Of a stretch of 34,595 nt of DNA, positions 1-31,941 are shown in pieces. The first letter of the stretch is position 1, and the number at the start of each line of letters is the position of its first letter. Below the pieces are notes generated by a model. That model ran no database searches. It was given only the letters and a program-made list of their open reading frames with translations, and was not told the origin of the DNA. The translations under genes and the position numbers were made by a program. Source of the stretch: Actinomycetota bacterium (GTDB taxonomy: Bacteria; Actinomycetota; Aquicultoria; Aquicultorales; JAMCWL01); NCBI GenBank assembly GCA_023481285.1, contig JAMCWL010000068.1:1-34595 (forward strand). The letters are read 5' to 3'.

Positions 1-960
1 AGCGCCCATCGGCACTGATGGCAGGCCGTCCACTGTAGCCATTTGCTTGCACACCAGTGCTCGAGACGCTTACCCTTGTCGTAGTGCTTAATAAGCGGTC
101 GCGGACGAAAATGTCACCATTGGAATTAGTATCGCCATCAACAAGGTTAGTGGCATCCGATGAAAAAGCCACATAGCTCCCATCTGCGCTGATAGAGGGA
201 TTACTGCTGTAGCCATTCGTCTGCTCACCGGTACTTAAAACGCTTACTCGCTTTGTTGCACCGGCCTGTACGTCGTGAACAAAGATATCTGAAGCTGCAT
301 TTGTGTCGCCGTCGACAAGGTTGTTGGCATCCGATGAAAAAGCTACATAGCGCCCGTCGGCACTTATAGCATGCCAAATACTATTGCCATTGCCCTGCTC
401 CCCAGTGCTTGAGATGCTAACTCGCCTTGTCGTTCCAGCTTGTAAATCGCGGACAAAGATATCATCTATTGCGTTTGTGTCGCCGTCGACAAGGTTGTTG
501 GCATGCGATGAAAAAGCCACATAGCGCCCGTCGGCACTTATTACAGGATATCCGCTGTAGCCATTTGCTTGCACACCAGTGCTCGAGACGCTTACCCTTG
601 TCGTAGTGCTTAATAAGCGGTCGTGGACGAAAATGTCATCAGCGGAGTTGGTGTCGTCTGGTACCAGATTGGAGGCAGCCGACCAGAAAGCTACATAGCG
701 CCCATCGGCACTGATGGCAGGCCGTCCACTGTAGCCATTTGCTTGCACACCAGTGCTCGAGACGCTTACCCTTGTCGTAGTGCTTAATAAGCGGTCGCGG
801 ACGAAAATGTCACCATTGGAATTGGTGTCGTCTGGTACCAGATTGGAGGCATACGACATGAAAGCTACATAGCGCCCATCGGCATTGATAGTGTTCCAAC
901 TACCATAACCGTTTCCCTGTTCACCAGTGCTAGACAAGCTCACGCATGTGGTGGTGCCAA
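1..960 (-). repeat. 174-bp in-frame tandem repeats in the propeller gene
   Basis: Repeat units begin at 1, 175, 349, 523, 697 and 871, an exact 174-bp (58-codon) period. Bases 1-127 are identical to 697-823, and the unit at 523 is nearly identical over its second half. The identity at DNA level, not only protein level, points to recent duplication or gene conversion. The array continues beyond the left edge. Confidence 0.9.
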
Positions 961-1948
961 GCGCTAAAGTACCGCTAACGAGAGCAGCGCTGGTCGGAGC
1001 TATATTGTCAACCCCTACGATGCCCTCTTCCGTTACGGCAACCGGATCGTTTCCGTTATACGGCCAACCGCCTGTAATATAGATTTTGTTGTTGATCGCT
1101 GCAGCTGCGGCTGCATACCTGGGCGTTGATGGTGGGGTCTCCGGTGACCAGGTATTTGTAACTGGGTCATACGTCTCTGCGGAAAACGCACCGTTTAACG
1201 TTAGGCCTCCTATGGCATAGACCTTGCCGCTAACCGTCACAACCGAATGCTGGTATCGACCATCGATCATCGGCGCTTTGGCGGTCCAGGTATCGGCAAC
1301 CGGATCGTACTCCTCTACGGTGTTGAGATAAGGATAAGCACCGCCGATAGCATAGATTTTGCCGTTCACCGCTATGACACCGAGATCGTATCGTGGTGTC
1401 GGCATCGAGGCTCTAGTTGTCCAGGTATCGGTAGTCGGGTTGTACTCCTCAACCGTGCCGACACTAGAGCCTGTGCGCGGATCTTCGCCCCCGATAGCGT
1501 AGATCTTTCCATTAACAACCGCAGTGCCAAGCCTAAAGCGGACAGTCGGCATCGGCGCTCTTGCTATCCAAGTATCGGCAACCGGATCGTACTCCTCTAC
1601 GGGGTTATTGTAAGGCCAATAATGCTGTGAGCCGATAGCATAGATTTTGCCATTTACCGTTGCAACAACTGCATACCGCGGCGTAGGCATTGGGGTTTTG
1701 GTTGTCCAGGTATTGGTGGCCGGATCGTATTCCTCAACAGTCCCTGTAACTTGTCCACCACCGTAACCACCAATAACATAAATCTTGCCATTGACTTCTG
1801 CGGCAGCTGCACCTACTCGAGGTGTCGGTATAGGCGCCTTGGTGCTCCAGGCTATGGCCGCTATAGCTGAGCCAAATGGAATCAGGGTGGTCGCCGGTAA
1901 AGCAAACGCAACCACGATACTCAGGCTTTTAATCTTCCTCAGGTTCAT
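1..1948 (-). CDS. Secreted Kelch / TolB-like beta-propeller protein (C-terminus cut by window edge)
   Basis: The gene reads on the minus strand without a stop for 649 codons and runs off the left edge. The ATG at 1948-1946 is preceded by a strong AAGGAG site. Residues 1-30 form a signal peptide (basic start, hydrophobic core, small residues before AIA-AIA), so the product is exported. Residues 33 to about 310 contain six Kelch-type repeats, each with W-x-x-(K/R)-x-P-x-P-T-P-R, NGKIYAIGG and VEEYDP motifs, enough for one six-bladed propeller. After a short linker come near-identical 58-residue repeats with ISADGRYVAF, NLV-DTN and DIFVRD motifs. These resemble the PD40/TolB propeller blades of periplasmic and surface proteins. 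No enzyme domain is visible in the available part. A role in surface binding or adhesion is inference from the fold only. Confidence 0.85.
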   Translation of the reverse strand, partial: MNLRKIKSLSIVVAFALPATTLIPFGSAIAAIAWSTKAPIPTPRVGAAAAEVNGKIYVIGGYGGGQVTGTVEEYDPATNTWTTKTPMPTPRYAVVATVNGKIYAIGSQHYWPYNNPVEEYDPVADTWIARAPMPTVRFRLGTAVVNGKIYAIGGEDPRTGSSVGTVEEYNPTTDTWTTRASMPTPRYDLGVIAVNGKIYAIGGAYPYLNTVEEYDPVADTWTAKAPMIDGRYQHSVVTVSGKVYAIGGLTLNGAFSAETYDPVTNTWSPETPPSTPRYAAAAAAINNKIYITGGWPYNGNDPVAVTEEGIVGVDNIAPTSAALVSGTLALGTTTCVSLSSTGEQGNGYGSWNTINADGRYVAFMSYASNLVPDDTNSNGDIFVRDRLLSTTTRVSVSSTGVQANGYSGRPAISADGRYVAFWSAASNLVPDDTNSADDIFVHDRLLSTTTRVSVSSTGVQANGYSGYPVISADGRYVAFSSHANNLVDGDTNAIDDIFVRDLQAGTTRRVSISSTGEQGNGNSIWHAISADGRYVAFSSDANNLVDGDTNAASDIFVHDVQAGATKRVSVLSTGEQTNGYSSNPSISADGSYVAFSSDATNLVDGDTNSNGDIFVRDRLLSTTTRVSVSSTGVQANGYSGRPAISADGR

Positions 1949-2397: not shown

Positions 2398-2775
2398 GAT
2401 CTCTTCGCAAACAACCGTCAACACATCGAGAAGGAGCCCGCGCTGGTCGTCGTCAAGGACAATAAAGAAGGGTTGAAGCCGGACTACAAGCGTTTGGGTG
2501 AGAAGATAAAGAGCGATTACGCATAGCTTTATCCTGGGACGAAGGTCGGAAGCACGGTCGTCGTCAAGATAGAGGGCAAAGACTGGCTAAGGGTTGATTT
2601 GGACTACACTCAGCCTGGGGCTGCTAAAAAGGAAAACGTGAAGAAAACGCGGTACGTGAATATTGGCTCTCGCGTCTACTGGCTAACCTTCGCCCTGACC
2701 GACGAAGCCTCCCACGCCGGTGAGCAGGATACGGCGCTCACTGAACAGATCATGAAAACGGTTGTGCTGAAGTAA
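2398..2775 (+). pseudogene. Decayed gene, copy 1 (unrecognised family)
   Basis: One frame encodes a protein-like sequence that is broken by an in-frame TAG at 2524-2526 and ends with TAA at 2773-2775. No start codon is visible and an in-frame TGA lies just upstream. The readable parts include VVVKDNKEGLKPDYK, then VVVKIEGKDWLRVDLDYT and RVYWLTFALTDEASHAGEQD. The last segment recurs at 2829-2952 and 5408-5490, which shows that a real protein family once sat here. The charged, beta-rich pattern could suit a small extracellular or lipoprotein domain. I do not recognise the family and assign no function. Confidence 0.55.
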
Positions 2776-2967: not shown

Positions 2968-3330
2968 CTAGATGGGAAGGTTGCGCACGCGAACTCTGGT
3001 CTCCTCGAAAATCGCAAGGGATCCACGTTCCAGATCGAGTGCAATATCCAAGAGGTATCGATCAAGAAGGTTGTTGATGATCACCGGGCGGCTATCATGA
3101 AGTCGAAATATGATGACTGAAGGTGTCGCCAGTTTTGAAGACGCAAGTATGGTGGCAAAATCAAGATCAGCTGTGAGTAAGATCCTTTTTTCGACTTCAG
3201 CCAACTTGGCAATATCTTGGTCTTTCGCCTTCCCTAGACCTAGATCTAGCAAATGAACAACATCATATCCTTTTGACTTAAGATGTTCGACTGTAGAGCG
3301 GGAGATTGGCATATCAGCCAGGAAGCGCAT
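2968..3330 (-). CDS. DUF5615 PIN-like protein, putative toxin
   Basis: This 120-residue protein starts MRFLADMPIS, and has a second acidic motif LLTADLDFA near residues 51-59. These are the conserved acidic positions of DUF5615 (PIN-like) proteins. PIN-fold proteins are usually Mg-dependent RNases, and members of this family are commonly paired with a DUF433 protein as VapC-like toxin and antitoxin. Here the DUF433 gene lies immediately upstream, and the two overlap in TGATG, so translation is probably coupled. The length is normal for the family and no frame damage is seen. Toxin activity is inferred from family and context. Confidence 0.8.
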   Translation of the reverse strand: MRFLADMPISRSTVEHLKSKGYDVVHLLDLGLGKAKDQDIAKLAEVEKRILLTADLDFATILASSKLATPSVIIFRLHDSRPVIINNLLDRYLLDIALDLERGSLAIFEETRVRVRNLPI

Positions 3331-3557: not shown

Positions 3558-3620
3558 CAAGCCCACTTCCTCTCAAAGCTCACGTTATCATCATAAGTTT
3601 TAATTAGGGGACAGTCAACA

Positions 3621-3656
3621 GGCAGGCAACAAGGCAGGCAACAAGGCAGGCAACAA
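3621..3656 (+). repeat. Three perfect 12-bp tandem repeats
   Basis: The unit GGCAGGCAACAA occurs three times without a mismatch at 3621, 3633 and 3645, in a gene-free stretch. Just before it is a GGGGACAGTC motif that is related to other GGGGAC motifs in the window. Confidence 0.85.
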
Positions 3657-3718
3657 GATCGGCTACTACCCGACGCTGTCTTTACGGGCGAAGTTCTGTC
3701 AAGAAAACCGTCGTTCTT

Positions 3719-4187: not shown

Positions 4188-4571
4188 ATGTCGAATAGAG
4201 CACACGATTGGTTAAGTCAAGCTAAAAGAGATCTAGAGCAAGCCATAGATTCTAGCCGAGCTAGCCGTCATGAGTGGGCTTGTTTTGCCGGTCAGCAATC
4301 CGCCGAAAAGGCGGTTAAGGCGTTGCATCTTCATTTAGGCCAAGAAGCTTGGGGGCATGTTGTTGCCAAACTGCTTGATGAATTGCCAATTGATATTCCT
4401 GAAGAATTAGTAGAGAAAGCGAAAGTTTTAGATAACTTCTATGTTGCTTCAAGATATCCCAATGGACATCCTGCGGGAGCTCCCTTCGAGCATTATGGTT
4501 CTTTGCAGAGCAAGGAGGCTATTACGTATGCCCGTGAGATTATTGACTTCGTCAATACTAAAATGGCCTGA
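4188..4571 (+). CDS. HEPN domain protein (partner of MNT nucleotidyltransferase)
   Basis: This 127-residue protein starts MSNRAHDWLSQAKRDLEQA and carries the HEPN signature CFAGQQSAEKAVKALHLHLG at residues 32-51, then helices with NFYVASRYPNG and KEAITYAREIIDFV. HEPN proteins are small all-helical proteins, often RNases, coded beside MNT-type nucleotidyltransferases. RASRHE near residue 25 is the only Arg/His pair I see near the first helices, so RNase activity is uncertain. The gene overlaps the downstream MNT gene by 44 bases, and the MNT ribosome binding site lies inside it. The ATG at 4188 is the natural start. Toxin function is inferred. Confidence 0.85.
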   Translation: MSNRAHDWLSQAKRDLEQAIDSSRASRHEWACFAGQQSAEKAVKALHLHLGQEAWGHVVAKLLDELPIDIPEELVEKAKVLDNFYVASRYPNGHPAGAPFEHYGSLQSKEAITYAREIIDFVNTKMA

Positions 4572-4896
4572 TGCTAACCGGGTTAAGAAGGCAGTCGGCC
4601 AGTGGACTAAACAAATTGTAAAGCAACAACCCGATGTCATCCGTATTGGCTACTTTGGCTCCTATGCCCGGGGGGATTGGGGTGTAGGCAGCGACTTGGA
4701 TATTATTATGATTGTTCGATCATCAAAGGAACCTTTTGAAAAGAGAGCTTCTAAGTGGGACCTAACTAAGCTTCCGGTGCCCGCCGACTTACTGGTTTAC
4801 ACCGAAGATGAATGGCAATCCCAGAAAAAACAGCAAAGTAAGTTCTATCGGATGCTTATGAAAGAAGCTGTTTGGCTTCACATAAAAGATAAATAA
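4528..4896 (+). CDS. MNT-type nucleotidyltransferase (antitoxin-like)
   Basis: A small DNA polymerase beta-type nucleotidyltransferase. The motif GSYARGDWGVGSDLD matches GS-x10-D-x-D, the metal-binding signature of minimal nucleotidyltransferases. In the studied HepT/MntA pairs such enzymes adenylylate the HEPN toxin and so neutralise it. I choose the ATG at 4528 because AAGGAGG lies 9 bases upstream, within the HEPN gene. This gives 122 residues and a 44-base overlap with the HEPN gene. The first residues (MPVRLLTSSILKWPD) are read from the overlap. HEPN first and MNT second is the opposite order to the second pair at 5.5-6.2 kb. Confidence 0.85.
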   Translation: MPVRLLTSSILKWPDANRVKKAVGQWTKQIVKQQPDVIRIGYFGSYARGDWGVGSDLDIIMIVRSSKEPFEKRASKWDLTKLPVPADLLVYTEDEWQSQKKQQSKFYRMLMKEAVWLHIKDK

Positions 4897-5542: not shown

Positions 5543-5871
5543 TTAGTGAACGATCTTCTCCAGGGCAGCAACTAAAGGTAGAATATTAGCTTGAATTGTG
5601 TCCCATACAAGAACCATATCGATGTCATCATATTCGTGAATTAGCACGTTTCGCATTGCAATCATGTCGTTCCATGGCAGGTCAGGAAAAGTCTCCCTGT
5701 TTGTCCTGAAATACGACGGGCGGCTTCGCCAATGATCTCGAGACGACGAACGACGGCGTCTTGACATTGAACGTCGTCGAGAAAATCTTGTTTGGTTTTT
5801 CCACTAATGTACCGAATAACGCGTTTTGCCGCCTCCAGGATATCCAGCAGGCATTCACTATCACGCGACAT
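5543..5871 (-). pseudogene. hepT: HepT-like (DUF86) toxin gene with a frameshift
   Basis: From the ATG at 5871 the frame reads MSRDSECLLDILEAAKRVIR, then VRRLEIIGEAARRISGQT. Near 5700 the homology jumps to another frame: FPDLPWNDMIAMRN, VLIHEYDDIDMVLVWDT and LVAALEKIVH, ending at TAA (5543). A loss of one base just after the ACA codon would explain it. The downstream part carries RNVLIHEY, which matches the RX4HXY RNase motif of HepT, so the catalytic site is present in the DNA but not reachable in the original frame. The ATG overlaps the end of the mntA-like gene by 11 bases. It may be a true pseudogene, a sequencing or assembly error, or a slippage site. Confidence 0.75.
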
Positions 5872-6178
5872 AAACGACCTCTGCTGAGCTAAGGATAGCG
5901 TGCCGTCGCCGGTAGTTCGGACTGGATTCAAGGCCTCGCCGGCTTACCAGATCCACTTCTCGTCCAAATATCTCTTTAAGCTCGTTTCGCATACGGATCA
6001 AATCGAACAAGGTTATATGAGCGCTCGAAGAGAATGAGACTAGCACGTCAATGTCGCTGTTAGGGCGGAAGTCAGCGCGTAGGACTGAACCAAACAACGC
6101 TAGTTCGCTTATTCTCCATTTTCGACAGAACTCCGCTATTCTATCGTGCGGAATCTGAATACCCGCGTTACGGCTCAC
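5861..6178 (-). CDS. mntA: MntA-like nucleotidyltransferase (antitoxin)
   Basis: This 105-residue protein has GSVLRADFRPNSDIDVLV, which fits GS-x10-D-x-D, and a third conserved carboxylate in EIFGREVDLVSRRGLE. The length and motifs fit the minimal nucleotidyltransferases of type VII toxin-antitoxin systems, which AMPylate HepT. It lies directly upstream of the hepT-like gene in the usual MntA-HepT order, and the genes overlap by 11 bases. It is intact, whereas its toxin partner is frameshifted, as expected if the toxin was lost first. The function is inferred from family and pairing. Confidence 0.85.
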   Translation of the reverse strand: MSRNAGIQIPHDRIAEFCRKWRISELALFGSVLRADFRPNSDIDVLVSFSSSAHITLFDLIRMRNELKEIFGREVDLVSRRGLESSPNYRRRHAILSSAEVVYVA

Positions 6179-6460: not shown

Positions 6461-7945
6461 GTGGTCATCCTGGCAGGTCCAGCCAAGAGGCAAAAGAAAG
6501 TCCTGTTGATAACGCCGCCTTACCACTGCGGGGTGCTGGAGTCCGCCGGGGTTTGGCTGCCGCTTCCCTTCGTCTACCTGGCCGGCGCTTTGCGGTGGGC
6601 CGGGTACGGCCCGGTGATCTACGACGCGATGAGCCGGTTTGACGATTACGAGGCAATCGGGAGGCGCATCGAAGAGGAGAAGCCGGACGTCGTCTGTTCG
6701 ACCGCCTACACGGCGACGGTTACGGACGCCATCGAGGTACTCAGACTTGCCAAGAAAATCAACCCGGAGGTCGTCACCGTCCTCGGCGGGATTCACCCTA
6801 CCTTCTGCTGGGAGGAGATCCTCACCGAGGATGCGGACGCCGTCGGCTTCGTCGTCCGCGGGGAGGGCGAAGTCACTCTGCCGGAACTCCTGGATGCCGC
6901 CTTCGGCGGCGGCGATCTCTCAAAAGTTAAGGGTATTGCTTACCTTGAAGGTGGGCGCCCGGTTGTAACCGCCCAACGTCCCTTCATAGGCAACCTCGAC
7001 TCTCTCGGGCTGGCATGGGACCTCGTCGATTGGCCGCTCTACACCTTCAGGACGAAAGATAATTCTGTTTTAGCCGTTACCCAGAGCTCTCGCGGGTGCA
7101 CACAGGGGTGCACATTCTGCTCGCAGCAGCTCTTCTGGGAGCGGACGTGGCGAGCCCGCAGTCCCGAGAATTTTATAGAAGAGCTCGAATTCCTACGGGA
7201 CCGCTTTGGGGTAGACGTCGCAATGATCACCGACGAGGTGCCGACGCTCGACCGGGAGAGGTGGGAGCGCATCCTCGACCTTATGATTGAACGTAAGGTT
7301 GGGGTTGAGCTTCTCATGGAGACGCGCGTCGACGACATCCTGCGCGACGAGGCGATCATGGAGAAGTACCGGCGGGCGGGAGTCGTCCACATCTACGTCG
7401 GCGTCGAGTCGGCCTCCCAGGAGACGCTCGACCGCTGGGGGAAGAACATCGAGGTCGAAGAGTCAAGGCGGGCCATCGAGCTGATCAACGGAGCGGACAT
7501 CATCTCCGAGACCTCTTTCGTTCTGGGCATGCCCGAGGAGACGCCCGAGTCGATCGCCCGCGCGGTCGAGCTGGCCAAGCACTACAACCCGGACATGGCC
7601 TTCTTCCTGGCCATCGCTCCTTGGCCCTATTCCGAGATCTACCCGGAGGTAAAGGAGCACGTTGCCACCCTCGACTACCGCAAGTACAACCTGGTTGAAC
7701 CGGTTATCAAGCCGGTCGCCATGAGAGTAGAAGAGCTATCCGACGCCCTTCTCAGGTGCTTCCGCGACTTCTACATAGGTAAGTTCGCGCGGCTTGATGA
7801 CCTTTCTCCCTTCAAGCGCGAGTACATGCTGAAGGTTGCCAAGCTCCTGGCCGAGCACTCCTACCTTAAAGAACAGATGAAAGGCATGGGCGAGATGCCC
7901 GCGGAAGTAAAGGCGCTATTAGAGAAAGTAGACAGTAGACAGTAG
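6461..7945 (+). CDS. BchE-like B12-binding radical SAM protein
   Basis: A protein of about 494 residues. The N-terminal part (KKVLLITPPYHCG, YLAGALRWAGYGPVIYDAM, VTVLGGIHPTFCWEEIL) is a B12-binding-type Rossmann domain. The radical SAM domain has CTQGCTFC, the CxxxCxxC cluster motif, then SQQLFWERTWRAR and ITDEVPTLDRERW. Along its whole length the pattern resembles BchE, the anaerobic Mg-protoporphyrin ester cyclase (GGVHGTF, CTFCSQWKFWRDYR, DMANWAMYTPWPFSD). No other chlorophyll gene is present, so the substrate is unknown and a BchE reaction should not be assumed. The frame is open further upstream but passes through a REP element, so I prefer GTG at 6461 (TTG at 6455 or 6506 are possible). 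The last codons (VDSRQ) and the TAG stop are heptamer repeat. Confidence 0.8.
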   Translation: MVILAGPAKRQKKVLLITPPYHCGVLESAGVWLPLPFVYLAGALRWAGYGPVIYDAMSRFDDYEAIGRRIEEEKPDVVCSTAYTATVTDAIEVLRLAKKINPEVVTVLGGIHPTFCWEEILTEDADAVGFVVRGEGEVTLPELLDAAFGGGDLSKVKGIAYLEGGRPVVTAQRPFIGNLDSLGLAWDLVDWPLYTFRTKDNSVLAVTQSSRGCTQGCTFCSQQLFWERTWRARSPENFIEELEFLRDRFGVDVAMITDEVPTLDRERWERILDLMIERKVGVELLMETRVDDILRDEAIMEKYRRAGVVHIYVGVESASQETLDRWGKNIEVEESRRAIELINGADIISETSFVLGMPEETPESIARAVELAKHYNPDMAFFLAIAPWPYSEIYPEVKEHVATLDYRKYNLVEPVIKPVAMRVEELSDALLRCFRDFYIGKFARLDDLSPFKREYMLKVAKLLAEHSYLKEQMKGMGEMPAEVKALLEKVDSRQ

Positions 7946-7952
7946 ACAGTAG
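7928..7952 (+). repeat. Heptamer array (GTAGACA)
   Basis: The unit GTAGACA occurs three times plus GTAG. It overlaps the end of the radical SAM gene and supplies its last residues and its TAG stop (7943-7945). Confidence 0.85.
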
Positions 7953-9566: not shown

Positions 9567-11830
9567 TGTTTCTCAGAAGATGGCTGCCCGTCGCCGTCAT
9601 GCTGCTTCTCATCTTCCATCCGGCAATCGCCCAGGCCAGCCAATTGATTACCAATGGCTATTTCACCGACGGTCTTAACGGATGGCGCGTCGCCTCGCGT
9701 CTTGCCAAAGTTAAGGCCGAGGTGGCCGGCAACCGTGGCCCGGGCAGCGTCAAGCTTGAGCTGATGGGCGGCCGCCTCCGCGGTGAAGCCTCGATCTCCC
9801 AGGATATCCCCGTCAAACTGAGCCCGGGGAGTAAAGCATCGATAAGCTTCTCCTGGCGGAAGAATTGGCTCGGCGCCGCGCCGGCCGAACAGTCGGCGGT
9901 CATCCAGATCATCCAGCCGGACGGCAAGGCCGTCGACGTATGGTCGGACAAGGTCGCGAGCTCCGCCGATACCTGGCATTCAACAACTGTCGACGTGGCC
10001 AACGCGATCGGTAAAGAGGGTAATTACGCCATCCGTCTCGCTGCGAACTTCGAGAACGGTGCCGGCGCCGGCGCCGGAAATCAGGTCTCCTTCGACGATG
10101 TCTCCTTTTCCGTGCCGACCATCTCCTCGGAACCCCGGACGACCATACTCGCGCCAACCGGTTTAACTACTCTTTCAGGAAGCAACCAGGTGGTTGCCGG
10201 CGTGACCAACGACGATGCGACCGTCTCGAAAGTCGAGCTTGCTTTTCGGAGAGAGGGAGACGGTTACTACTGGAACGGTAACTCCTGGAGCCTCTCGGAA
10301 TCCTGGGTCCCGGCGAAGATCATTACCGGCCAGGGGACGAAGGGCGCAACCTGGTCCTACAACTGGCCGCTCCCCACCTCGGATGGGGAGAAGTTTAAGC
10401 TCTTGGCTAGCGCCGAGGACGCCGCCGGGAACAGGGAGTGGTCGCGCTCGATCGATTTGAAGGTCGACACCGTAGCCCCGACCGGCGCCATCTACATCAA
10501 CGACGCCGCGAGTTATACGAGAAGCCGGCAGGTCAAGATCGACAACCAGGTGACCGGCGCCAGCCAGATGCGCTTCTCCATCGATGGCGGGCTCTCCTGG
10601 AGTAAGTGGAGACAATTTGCGCAGAGTGTGGAGATGGAGCTCCCGGCTGGCGACGGCAGTAAGGTGGTGACGGGCGAATTTCGGGACGACGTCGGCAATA
10701 CCTTCAAGGTTTCAGATAACATCGCGCTCGATACCACTCCCCCGGTTACCAGAATGACCTTCCCGCCTCCCGGAGCGAGCAAGGTCAAGCCAAGCTCCAC
10801 GATCGGCGCCGTCTTCTATGAGGAGATGAACGGCGCCACATTCAAAAATGACGGAACCGAGTCGGGATCGACTTTCTACGTCAAGCAAGGTTCCGCCTGG
10901 ATGCCCGGGAGCGTTATTTACGACGACGGCACCAGGACCGCCAAGTTCATCCCCGCCTCGCCCCTGGCCGAGGGAACGATGTACACCGCTTACCTCACGG
11001 GCGTTGAGGACGCCGCCGGCAACCGGCTGGCAGCCAACTACTCCTGGTCTTTTACGACTGCCGGAAGTTCGAAGCTCTCCTTAAGCAGCGTAATAACCAA
11101 GGCTTCCGGAGGCAAGATCTCGGACGGAAGCGGTCTCATCGAGCTCACGATTCCACCCGAGGCGGTAGGGTTTGATGTGACGGTCAGCCTCACGGAGGTC
11201 AAGGAGGAAGAGGCTCCGAAGACGACCGGGCTCACCAGGTTCAGCGGCGTCTACAAGCTCGGACCGGATAGCATTAAATTACTTAAACAGGCGCTCCTGC
11301 GCGTCAAATACCAGCCGGTCGAGGGGGTCGACGAGTCGATCATCCGGGTGTTCGTATACGACAAGGAAGCACAGCAATGGACGGTCGCCCCCTCAAGGTT
11401 GGACGTTACGGCGAACACGGCTTCAACAAGCGCAGATAAGGCGATTCTTTTCACGGTGGCGGCGCGGGCCGATTCCGAGCCGCCGACGACCACGATCTTG
11501 AACCCGACCGGCTCGACGGTCCTTTCCGGCAAGACGCAGGCGATCGTCGGAGCCGCGACCGATGACTTCTCCGTTTCCAGGGTTGAGGTGGCGATCGTCA
11601 GACTTAAGGATGGTTTTTACTGGAACGGCAACTCCTGGAGCGCATCGGAATCCTGGGTCGCGGCTAGAATCATCAACGGCCGAGGAACGAAGAGCGCATC
11701 ATGGTCTTACAACTGGCCGCTTCCCATAGCCGACGGGCGGAATTACCGAATTCTGGCCCGGAGCATCGATGGCGGCGGCAACCGCGAACAGAACCCGGCC
11801 GCCGCTTACGTTGAGATGGCGGGAAAATAG
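9566..11830 (+). CDS. Secreted multi-domain beta-sandwich protein
   Basis: 754 residues from GTG 9566, with GGAGG upstream inside the TPR gene. Residues 1-24 are a signal peptide ending AQA. The domains in order: a jelly-roll region like carbohydrate-binding modules (about 26-190, starting LITNGYFTDGLNGWRV); a Bowman-like Ig module with YYWNGNSWSLSESWV (about 195-303); a module with SGGLSWSKW (about 304-390); a Big_5-type Ig-like domain (about 390-498, TTPPVTRMTFPPPG to YSWSFTT); a ZU5-like domain (about 513-631, GLIELTIPPEAVG); and a second copy of the YWNGNSW module (about 644-750). No catalytic domain and no sorting motif is visible. A cell-surface or matrix role is likely, but the partner is unknown. 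Confidence 0.8.
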   Translation: MFLRRWLPVAVMLLLIFHPAIAQASQLITNGYFTDGLNGWRVASRLAKVKAEVAGNRGPGSVKLELMGGRLRGEASISQDIPVKLSPGSKASISFSWRKNWLGAAPAEQSAVIQIIQPDGKAVDVWSDKVASSADTWHSTTVDVANAIGKEGNYAIRLAANFENGAGAGAGNQVSFDDVSFSVPTISSEPRTTILAPTGLTTLSGSNQVVAGVTNDDATVSKVELAFRREGDGYYWNGNSWSLSESWVPAKIITGQGTKGATWSYNWPLPTSDGEKFKLLASAEDAAGNREWSRSIDLKVDTVAPTGAIYINDAASYTRSRQVKIDNQVTGASQMRFSIDGGLSWSKWRQFAQSVEMELPAGDGSKVVTGEFRDDVGNTFKVSDNIALDTTPPVTRMTFPPPGASKVKPSSTIGAVFYEEMNGATFKNDGTESGSTFYVKQGSAWMPGSVIYDDGTRTAKFIPASPLAEGTMYTAYLTGVEDAAGNRLAANYSWSFTTAGSSKLSLSSVITKASGGKISDGSGLIELTIPPEAVGFDVTVSLTEVKEEEAPKTTGLTRFSGVYKLGPDSIKLLKQALLRVKYQPVEGVDESIIRVFVYDKEAQQWTVAPSRLDVTANTASTSADKAILFTVAARADSEPPTTTILNPTGSTVLSGKTQAIVGAATDDFSVSRVEVAIVRLKDGFYWNGNSWSASESWVAARIINGRGTKSASWSYNWPLPIADGRNYRILARSIDGGGNREQNPAAAYVEMAGK

Positions 11831-11870
11831 CTATCAGCCGTCAGCTATCAGCTATCAGCCGTCAGCAATC
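11829..11870 (+). repeat. Heptamer array (AGCTATC/AGCCGTC)
   Basis: Six 7-bp units, AGCTATC, AGCCGTC, AGCTATC, AGCTATC, AGCCGTC, AGCAATC. The first begins inside the TAG stop of the secreted protein gene. Bases 11829-11859 are the exact reverse complement of 21232-21262. Confidence 0.85.
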
Positions 11871-18687: not shown

Positions 18688-18755
18688 CTACTGGCCACTA
18701 GCTACTAGCTCAAGGCAATCAGCTAGAAGCTAGAAGCTAGAAGCTAGAAGCTAGT
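18686..18755 (+). repeat. Heptamer array (AGCTACT then AGCTAGA)
   Basis: Ten 7-bp units in register, from AGCTACT, GGCCACT, AGCTACT to four AGCTAGA units and AGCTAGT. It starts inside the TAG stop codon of lysA (18685-18687) and ends 50 bases before hom. Confidence 0.85.
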
Positions 18756-21154: not shown

Positions 21155-21230
21155 TTAGTAATTGGTGCTTCGTTGCTTAAATCTATCAGACACCCTGTTG
21201 GAACCTCGAGGTAGCGCAACAGATGCCTTT

Positions 21231-21262
21231 AGCTGATAGCTGATAGCTGACGGCTGATAGCT
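21231..21262 (+). repeat. Heptamer array (AGCTGAT)
   Basis: Units AGCTGAT, AGCTGAT, AGCTGAC, GGCTGAT and AGCT. Bases 21232-21262 are the exact reverse complement of 11829-11859. Confidence 0.85.
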
Positions 21263-31868: not shown

Positions 31869-31941
31869 GTGCGGAGGGTCTTGATGTGCAGAGTTTTGAC
31901 AATCGTGCGGAGGGTCTTGTGCGGAGGGTCTTGATTGTCAA
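31869..31941 (+). repeat. 14-bp repeats inside a 9-bp inverted repeat
   Basis: GTGCGGAGGGTCTT occurs at 31869, 31905 and 31919; the last two are in tandem. They are framed by TTGACAATC (31896-31904) and GATTGTCAA (31933-31941). The right arm overlaps the -35 box of the rpmE promoter, so the block may be an operator. Confidence 0.7.

Follow-up and report, generated by a model that had tools for sequence, protein, structure and literature searches.

A hybrid contig end in a Kelch and PD40 propeller gene of an Actinomycetota bacterium: a repeat of probable k-mer length and a possible four-blade duplication

The window, by which we mean the whole stretch of DNA analysed (34,595 nt, JAMCWL010000068.1 of assembly GCA_023481285.1, from an Actinomycetota bacterium), is the whole of one contig, C65, in a genome of 115 contigs and 2.17 Mb. 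Since the window is an entire contig, the propeller gene that opens it is truncated by the contig's own end, and its 3′ part is found on a second contig, C35. The features of the gene and its surroundings are as follows.

2..1948, minus strand: 5′ part of a secreted-looking Kelch and PD40 propeller gene, 649 codons long and running off the contig
1055..1852 (limits approximate), minus strand: Kelch propeller with six Kelch_1 stretches (Pfam Kelch_1, E 1.9e-66)
758..931, minus strand: PD40-like blade B1
584..757, minus strand: PD40-like blade B2
410..583, minus strand: PD40-like blade B3
236..409, minus strand: PD40-like blade B4
62..235, minus strand: blade B5 as assembled, a hybrid whose first 38 codons are its own and whose last 20 are identical to B1 (nucleotide identity)
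2..61, minus strand: opening 20 codons of a sixth unit, matching B2 exactly and cut by the contig end
697..823, minus strand: internal copy of the 127-bp repeat (second part of B1 and start of B2)
1..127, minus strand: terminal copy of the 127-bp repeat, its length being the putative k of the assembler
123..127, minus strand: hybrid junction, where the blade 5 and blade 1 sequences have 5 bp (AATTC) in common
123..221, minus strand: exact 99-bp overlap with the start of C35 (window 221-123 = C35:1-99)
2428..2772, plus strand: degenerate partial copy of a 338-aa gene of C35, 70% amino acid identity
2820..2951, plus strand: a further degenerate copy of that gene, shorter than the first, 80% amino acid identity
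C35:1-1072: 3′ part of the propeller gene, its stop reached on C35
C35:1225-2241, minus strand: 338-aa gene downstream of the propeller gene

The encoded protein starts with a stretch that looks signal-like when judged by eye, followed by the Kelch motifs and then by the PD40 blades. Kelch_1 scores 219.5 bits over six stretches (gathering score 20.1), enough motifs for a putative ring, and PD40 (PF07676) scores 71.0 bits in the window part and 48.5 bits in the C35 part with a cut-off of 20.9. The C-terminal region on C35 matches an OmpL47-type domain (84.2 bits vs 40) and also Ig-like families, one of which, Big_3_4, lies above its cut-off. When C65 and C35 are merged at the 99-bp overlap and the hybrid tail is left out, the result is 932 amino acids in frame, consisting of the Kelch part, seven PD40-like blades and the C-terminal domains. 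The product is an ordinary two-propeller surface or secreted protein with six Kelch motifs, a PD40/TolB-like propeller, for which seven blades are usual, and C-terminal beta domains. Its likeness to TolB and other PD40 propellers lies in the PD40 score; against the TolB model (TIGR02800) the C35 part reaches 18.1 bits where 343.15 are required and the window part is not among the matches at E 0.01, thus by that test the gene is not a TolB orthologue. From its family and fold, the PD40 domain probably serves as a stable scaffold for extracellular binding. All of the 18 plasmid records with matches were below 60% identity and are uninformative for the propeller gene, and phage records gave no match at the DNA level. 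The right end of the window has 25 bp in common with the interior of another contig.

Blades B1 to B5 run from 931 to 62 in steps of exactly 174 bp, without indels and in one open minus-strand frame (TRF: period 174, 5.1 copies, 1-889). The preliminary description of this DNA had counted six 58-codon blades in perfect period; the period stands, but the array holds five complete blades and 20 codons of a sixth. Its longest exact repeat is 127 bp (1-127 = 697-823) at a lag of 696 bp, or 4 x 174, and the next longest are two pairs of 69 bp. Units 1 and 5 are indeed identical over 127 bp while the units between them differ, as had been described, yet this identity begins abruptly within blade 5: codons 1-38 of B5 as assembled are 67% identical to B1 at the nucleotide level and codons 39-58 are 100% identical. 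Identity over 127 bp or more occurs in the gene only at the contig end, where the assembly stops. That the identity is beyond chance can be seen from 98 complete seven-blade arrays listed in the survey described below, where the longest exact internal repeat has a median of 20 bp and a maximum of 105 bp, with at least 60 bp in six arrays and at least 90 bp in three.

Contigs of a k-mer graph terminate in shared k-mers, and the ends of other contigs of the genome show how the length of 127 bp is to be read. We compared the ends of 61 of the 115 contigs with one another and against the window, C35 (8 kb) and C10 (12 kb); eight contigs were all N, which left 106 ends. Exact terminal matches of at least 90 bp were found at 18 of these ends, seven of them 127 bases long, four 99, three 126, two 123 and two 137. 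The seven ends of 127 bases comprise three contig pairs and C65 against its own interior, and among the 106 ends there was neither a terminal match of 36 to 95 bases nor any pair sharing the full 300 bases compared. Because the exact matches cluster at 127 and 99, the length of the repeat is most likely the assembler's k-mer, although the shared lengths of 137, 126 and 123 mean that some contig ends are not clean k. The figure of 127 bp is most likely a lower bound imposed by the assembler, and the identical tract may in truth be longer. We infer that SPAdes, run with k values of 99 and 127, produced the assembly; the Unicycler paper gives 127 as the largest SPAdes k and describes SPAdes contigs as keeping overlapping sequence at their ends (PMC5481147). 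The observations support a gene split across C65 and C35 where the k-mer graph failed to traverse the repeat. An exact repeat of length k at a contig end can be mistaken for gene conversion, and the contig ends of the same genome allow such an artefact of length to be separated from a possibly real hybrid junction.

Past the 99-bp overlap, C35 diverges from the window and carries another continuation of blade 5, two further blades and the C-terminal region, ending at C35:1072. The 338-aa gene that follows has no Pfam match at E 0.01. On C65 both of its degenerate copies lie upstream of the propeller gene and are oriented relative to it as the 338-aa gene is on C35, and the occurrence of the gene on C35 and of its copies beside the C65 gene suggests a single neighbourhood. 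We judged it unlikely that C35 carries an unrelated paralogue, since the overlap has exactly a k-like length and copies of the neighbouring gene lie next to the propeller gene of C65. The degenerate copies themselves are remnants of an older duplication around the propeller gene.

The junction within B5 is a separate matter from the length of the repeat. A 21-base word across it occurs once in the bacterium's own genome, at the contig end itself, and k-mers of 9 or more bases spanning it are absent from a hybrid-free pool made of the window from base 123, 8 kb of C35 and 12 kb of C10. With no second source of this word in the genome, reads bearing the junction were most likely required to build the graph, from either real DNA or chimeric molecules. 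An assembly artefact, named beforehand as what would count against recent exchange, is therefore half of the answer: assembly accounts for the length of 127 bp and for where the array stops, but the hybrid junction calls for real DNA or a chimera.

Blade number across the family was counted with a 14-blade profile (blades of the window, C35 and C10) run on 114 loci, of which 79 came from one GTDB scan. These 79 ranked highest, in likeness to a seven-blade alignment, among at least 543 confirmed relatives, a choice that biases the seven-blade share upward. A further 17 edge arrays, including those of the window and C35, were left out of the count; three edge arrays have 9, 11 and 14 units, read from translations and coordinates only. 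In this sample, biased as it is towards seven, seven blades are present in 101 of 113 complete arrays listed, and in 98 of 110 once three duplicates are removed, so that the constant blade number considered in the preliminary description largely holds across species. The remaining 12 of the 110 were called by the profile as having four blades (3), five (2), six (6) or eight (1). Seven blades were also found in the paralogous domain on C10 of the same genome and in each of two loci of the best-scoring other genome of the class (G025). The C10 domain is complete and internal to a 2928-aa protein (C10:1590-10376, minus strand), YD-repeat-like when classed by eye.

In a composite of B1-B4 and three C35 blades the median identity between blades is 57%, where the 98 seven-blade arrays listed have a median of 55%. 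Of the 15 blade pairs among B1-B5 and the sixth blade from C35, 7 are saturated in synonymous differences, which makes the array as a whole old; the closest pair is B1 and B2 (dS 0.24). The repeats had been called recently homogenised, and a blade-to-blade comparison of synonymous changes had been proposed as a check. Neither the identities nor that comparison, now made, agrees with such a history: without the hybrid tail the seven blades are about as diverged as those of other arrays, and we rejected general homogenisation on this ground. Recent blade sharing is seen more cleanly than in the window in an array of Nitrospirae JdFR-88 (L200_2), which has a complete set of seven blades and an exact 105-bp repeat with its copies three blades (522 bp) apart, inside a contig of 52.9 kb.

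The window's own protein, being cut and modelled without an alignment, gave a mean pLDDT of 47.4, too poor for use, and the fold was taken from a complete relative, L175 (422 aa, alignment A2 of 31 sequences), whose model is predicted at pLDDT 94.6 with 28 strands, or seven blades of four. S9 peptidases and TolB propellers come first in its Foldseek ranking, and realignment with VIA-align places the CylK propeller (PDB 7fh7, 7ron; Z 34.6, rmsd 2.4, 347 aligned residues, 14% identity) highest among solved structures; searching solved structures by sequence, with alignment A1 as the query, found no match at E 0.01. The C-terminal propeller of CylK has seven blades, each with a Ca2+ site of similar kind (PMC8916777). 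The likeness is one of seven-bladed fold at 14% identity, it concerns L175 rather than the protein of the window, and it carries no suggestion of alkylation chemistry. By analogy, the conserved D-T-N...D blade loop would suit a candidate Ca2+ site like that of CylK.

Two systems described in the literature are close to the situation at this contig end. Pereira and Lupas (2022) describe propeller blades as amplified continuously, with two otherwise identical paralogues of 6 and 9 blades, and warn of assembly trouble from identical overlaps; in their account amplification is mostly by a single blade, with one two-blade case (PMC9218822). The shared element is duplication of blades within a propeller, and the difference is that the unit considered here would be four blades. 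Their mark of a highly repetitive propeller, a median blade identity above 60% (PMC9218822), is passed by 27 of the 98 arrays listed, and the propeller gene, at 57%, falls below it. A locally amplified propeller in their sense has nearly identical blades within an otherwise diverged array; in the propeller gene the identity of 127 bp or more is confined to the contig end. The second system is that of the het-d, het-e and het-r WD40 genes of Podospora anserina, whose repeats are proposed to evolve via unequal crossing-over and which short-read SPAdes assembly often splits into two scaffolds and sometimes provides with chimeric repeats (PMC12222747). The propeller gene resembles them in the proposed crossing-over and in the splitting; their repeats are more than 80% identical, eukaryotic and involved in non-self recognition (PMC12222747). 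A literature search for at least four of five terms together (unequal crossing-over, propellers, bacteria, blade number, length polymorphism) returned this report as its sole match.

The explanation that we lean towards, with slightly more confidence than doubt, is that the hybrid end derives from a single unequal exchange that recently duplicated four blades (696 bp) in tandem and in frame. The exchange would have linked blades 5 and 1 at equivalent codons, and the resulting gene would have 11 blades, four above the usual ring. The duplication may be present in all or some of the sampled cells, and as a recent event it would be what broke the k-mer graph. A toy graph was built from two models, a seven-blade gene (932 aa) and a four-blade duplication with 11 blades (1164 aa), both in frame. 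With the duplication, the path at k=127 stops exactly at window base 1 and the contig at k=99 begins exactly at C35 base 1; with the seven-blade model alone there is a single contig with neither break nor hybrid, and a mixture of both gives a graph identical to that of the duplication alone. The seven-blade gene as the sole sequence, free of chimeras, was rejected on this result. Unequal crossing-over or gene conversion had been put forward for the mosaic from the start; unequal exchange is the simplest source of a B5/B1 hybrid and plausible for one recent event, whereas a general homogenisation by such events is not borne out. The event proposed is of a known kind and the gene family an ordinary one. 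If the duplication is real, it shows a propeller caught just after enlargement, a step normally inferred from blades that have already diverged.

Several observations weigh against the four-blade duplication. Full coverage at k=127 predicts that C35 starts with 127 shared bases, and 99 are observed, so the model must assume a coverage gap at that junction. None of the 110 distinct complete arrays listed has 11 blades, and a second four-blade copy was not found in the bacterium's own genome, where 8 of the 61 contigs examined were masked. Moreover, a library chimera or a second strain produces the same graph as the duplication.

A chimera of library preparation or assembly, in a gene of seven blades that has seen no recent recombination, is the strongest of these competitors and on balance unlikely. 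It agrees with the joining of C65 and C35 into exactly seven blades in frame, with seven as the usual number of the family, and with the chimeric repeats reported in some SPAdes assemblies of highly repetitive WD40 genes (PMC12222747). The junction, however, shares 5 bp only and its 21-base word is unique in the genome, and a graph with k of at least 21 would hardly have formed it without reads that carry it; a rare chimera is also weakly disfavoured by the two links, that to the hybrid apparently being retained at k=127 and that to C35 apparently no higher than k=99. Less likely still is gene conversion in one strain, by which a tract of blades 1-2 would have overwritten blades 5-6 with the number still seven, C35 being the unconverted allele of another strain. 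By reasoning outside the toy-graph models, the same two contig ends would be expected, and the exact internal tracts of 90-105 bp in three of the 98 complete seven-blade arrays listed suggest that tract sharing without change of number occurs in the family; yet the assembly ends at window base 1, before any far end of a tract, and two strains in the bin would be required. We are more doubtful again about a surface propeller that alternates between 7 and 11 blades within a population as a four-blade block is exchanged, both forms being in the assembly, which if true would be a natural, ongoing enlargement of a propeller via a multi-blade unit. A generally homogenised array whose blade number varies between strains so as to vary the binding surface has very little probability, as the hybrid blade and the known near-identical propellers of differing blade number (PMC9218822) are outweighed by the ordinary blade identity without the tail, the synonymous saturation and the blade number strongly conserved across species.

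The rest of the window holds smaller features of other kinds. A HEPN-domain gene overlaps a nucleotidyltransferase frame at 4188-4896 (plus strand), and another small nucleotidyltransferase is encoded nearby at 5861-6178 (minus strand); we take these genes to resemble HEPN-MNT toxin-antitoxin pairs. A DUF5615 protein (83.8 bits) is encoded at 2968-3330 on the minus strand, and DUF5615 is a PIN-like family frequent in toxin-antitoxin settings. Short tandem arrays with units of 7, 12, 14 and 21 bases are located at 3612-3657, 7923-7952, 11829-11870, 18700-18754, 21230-21262 and 31905-31933, several of them with AGCTA or TAGCT words.
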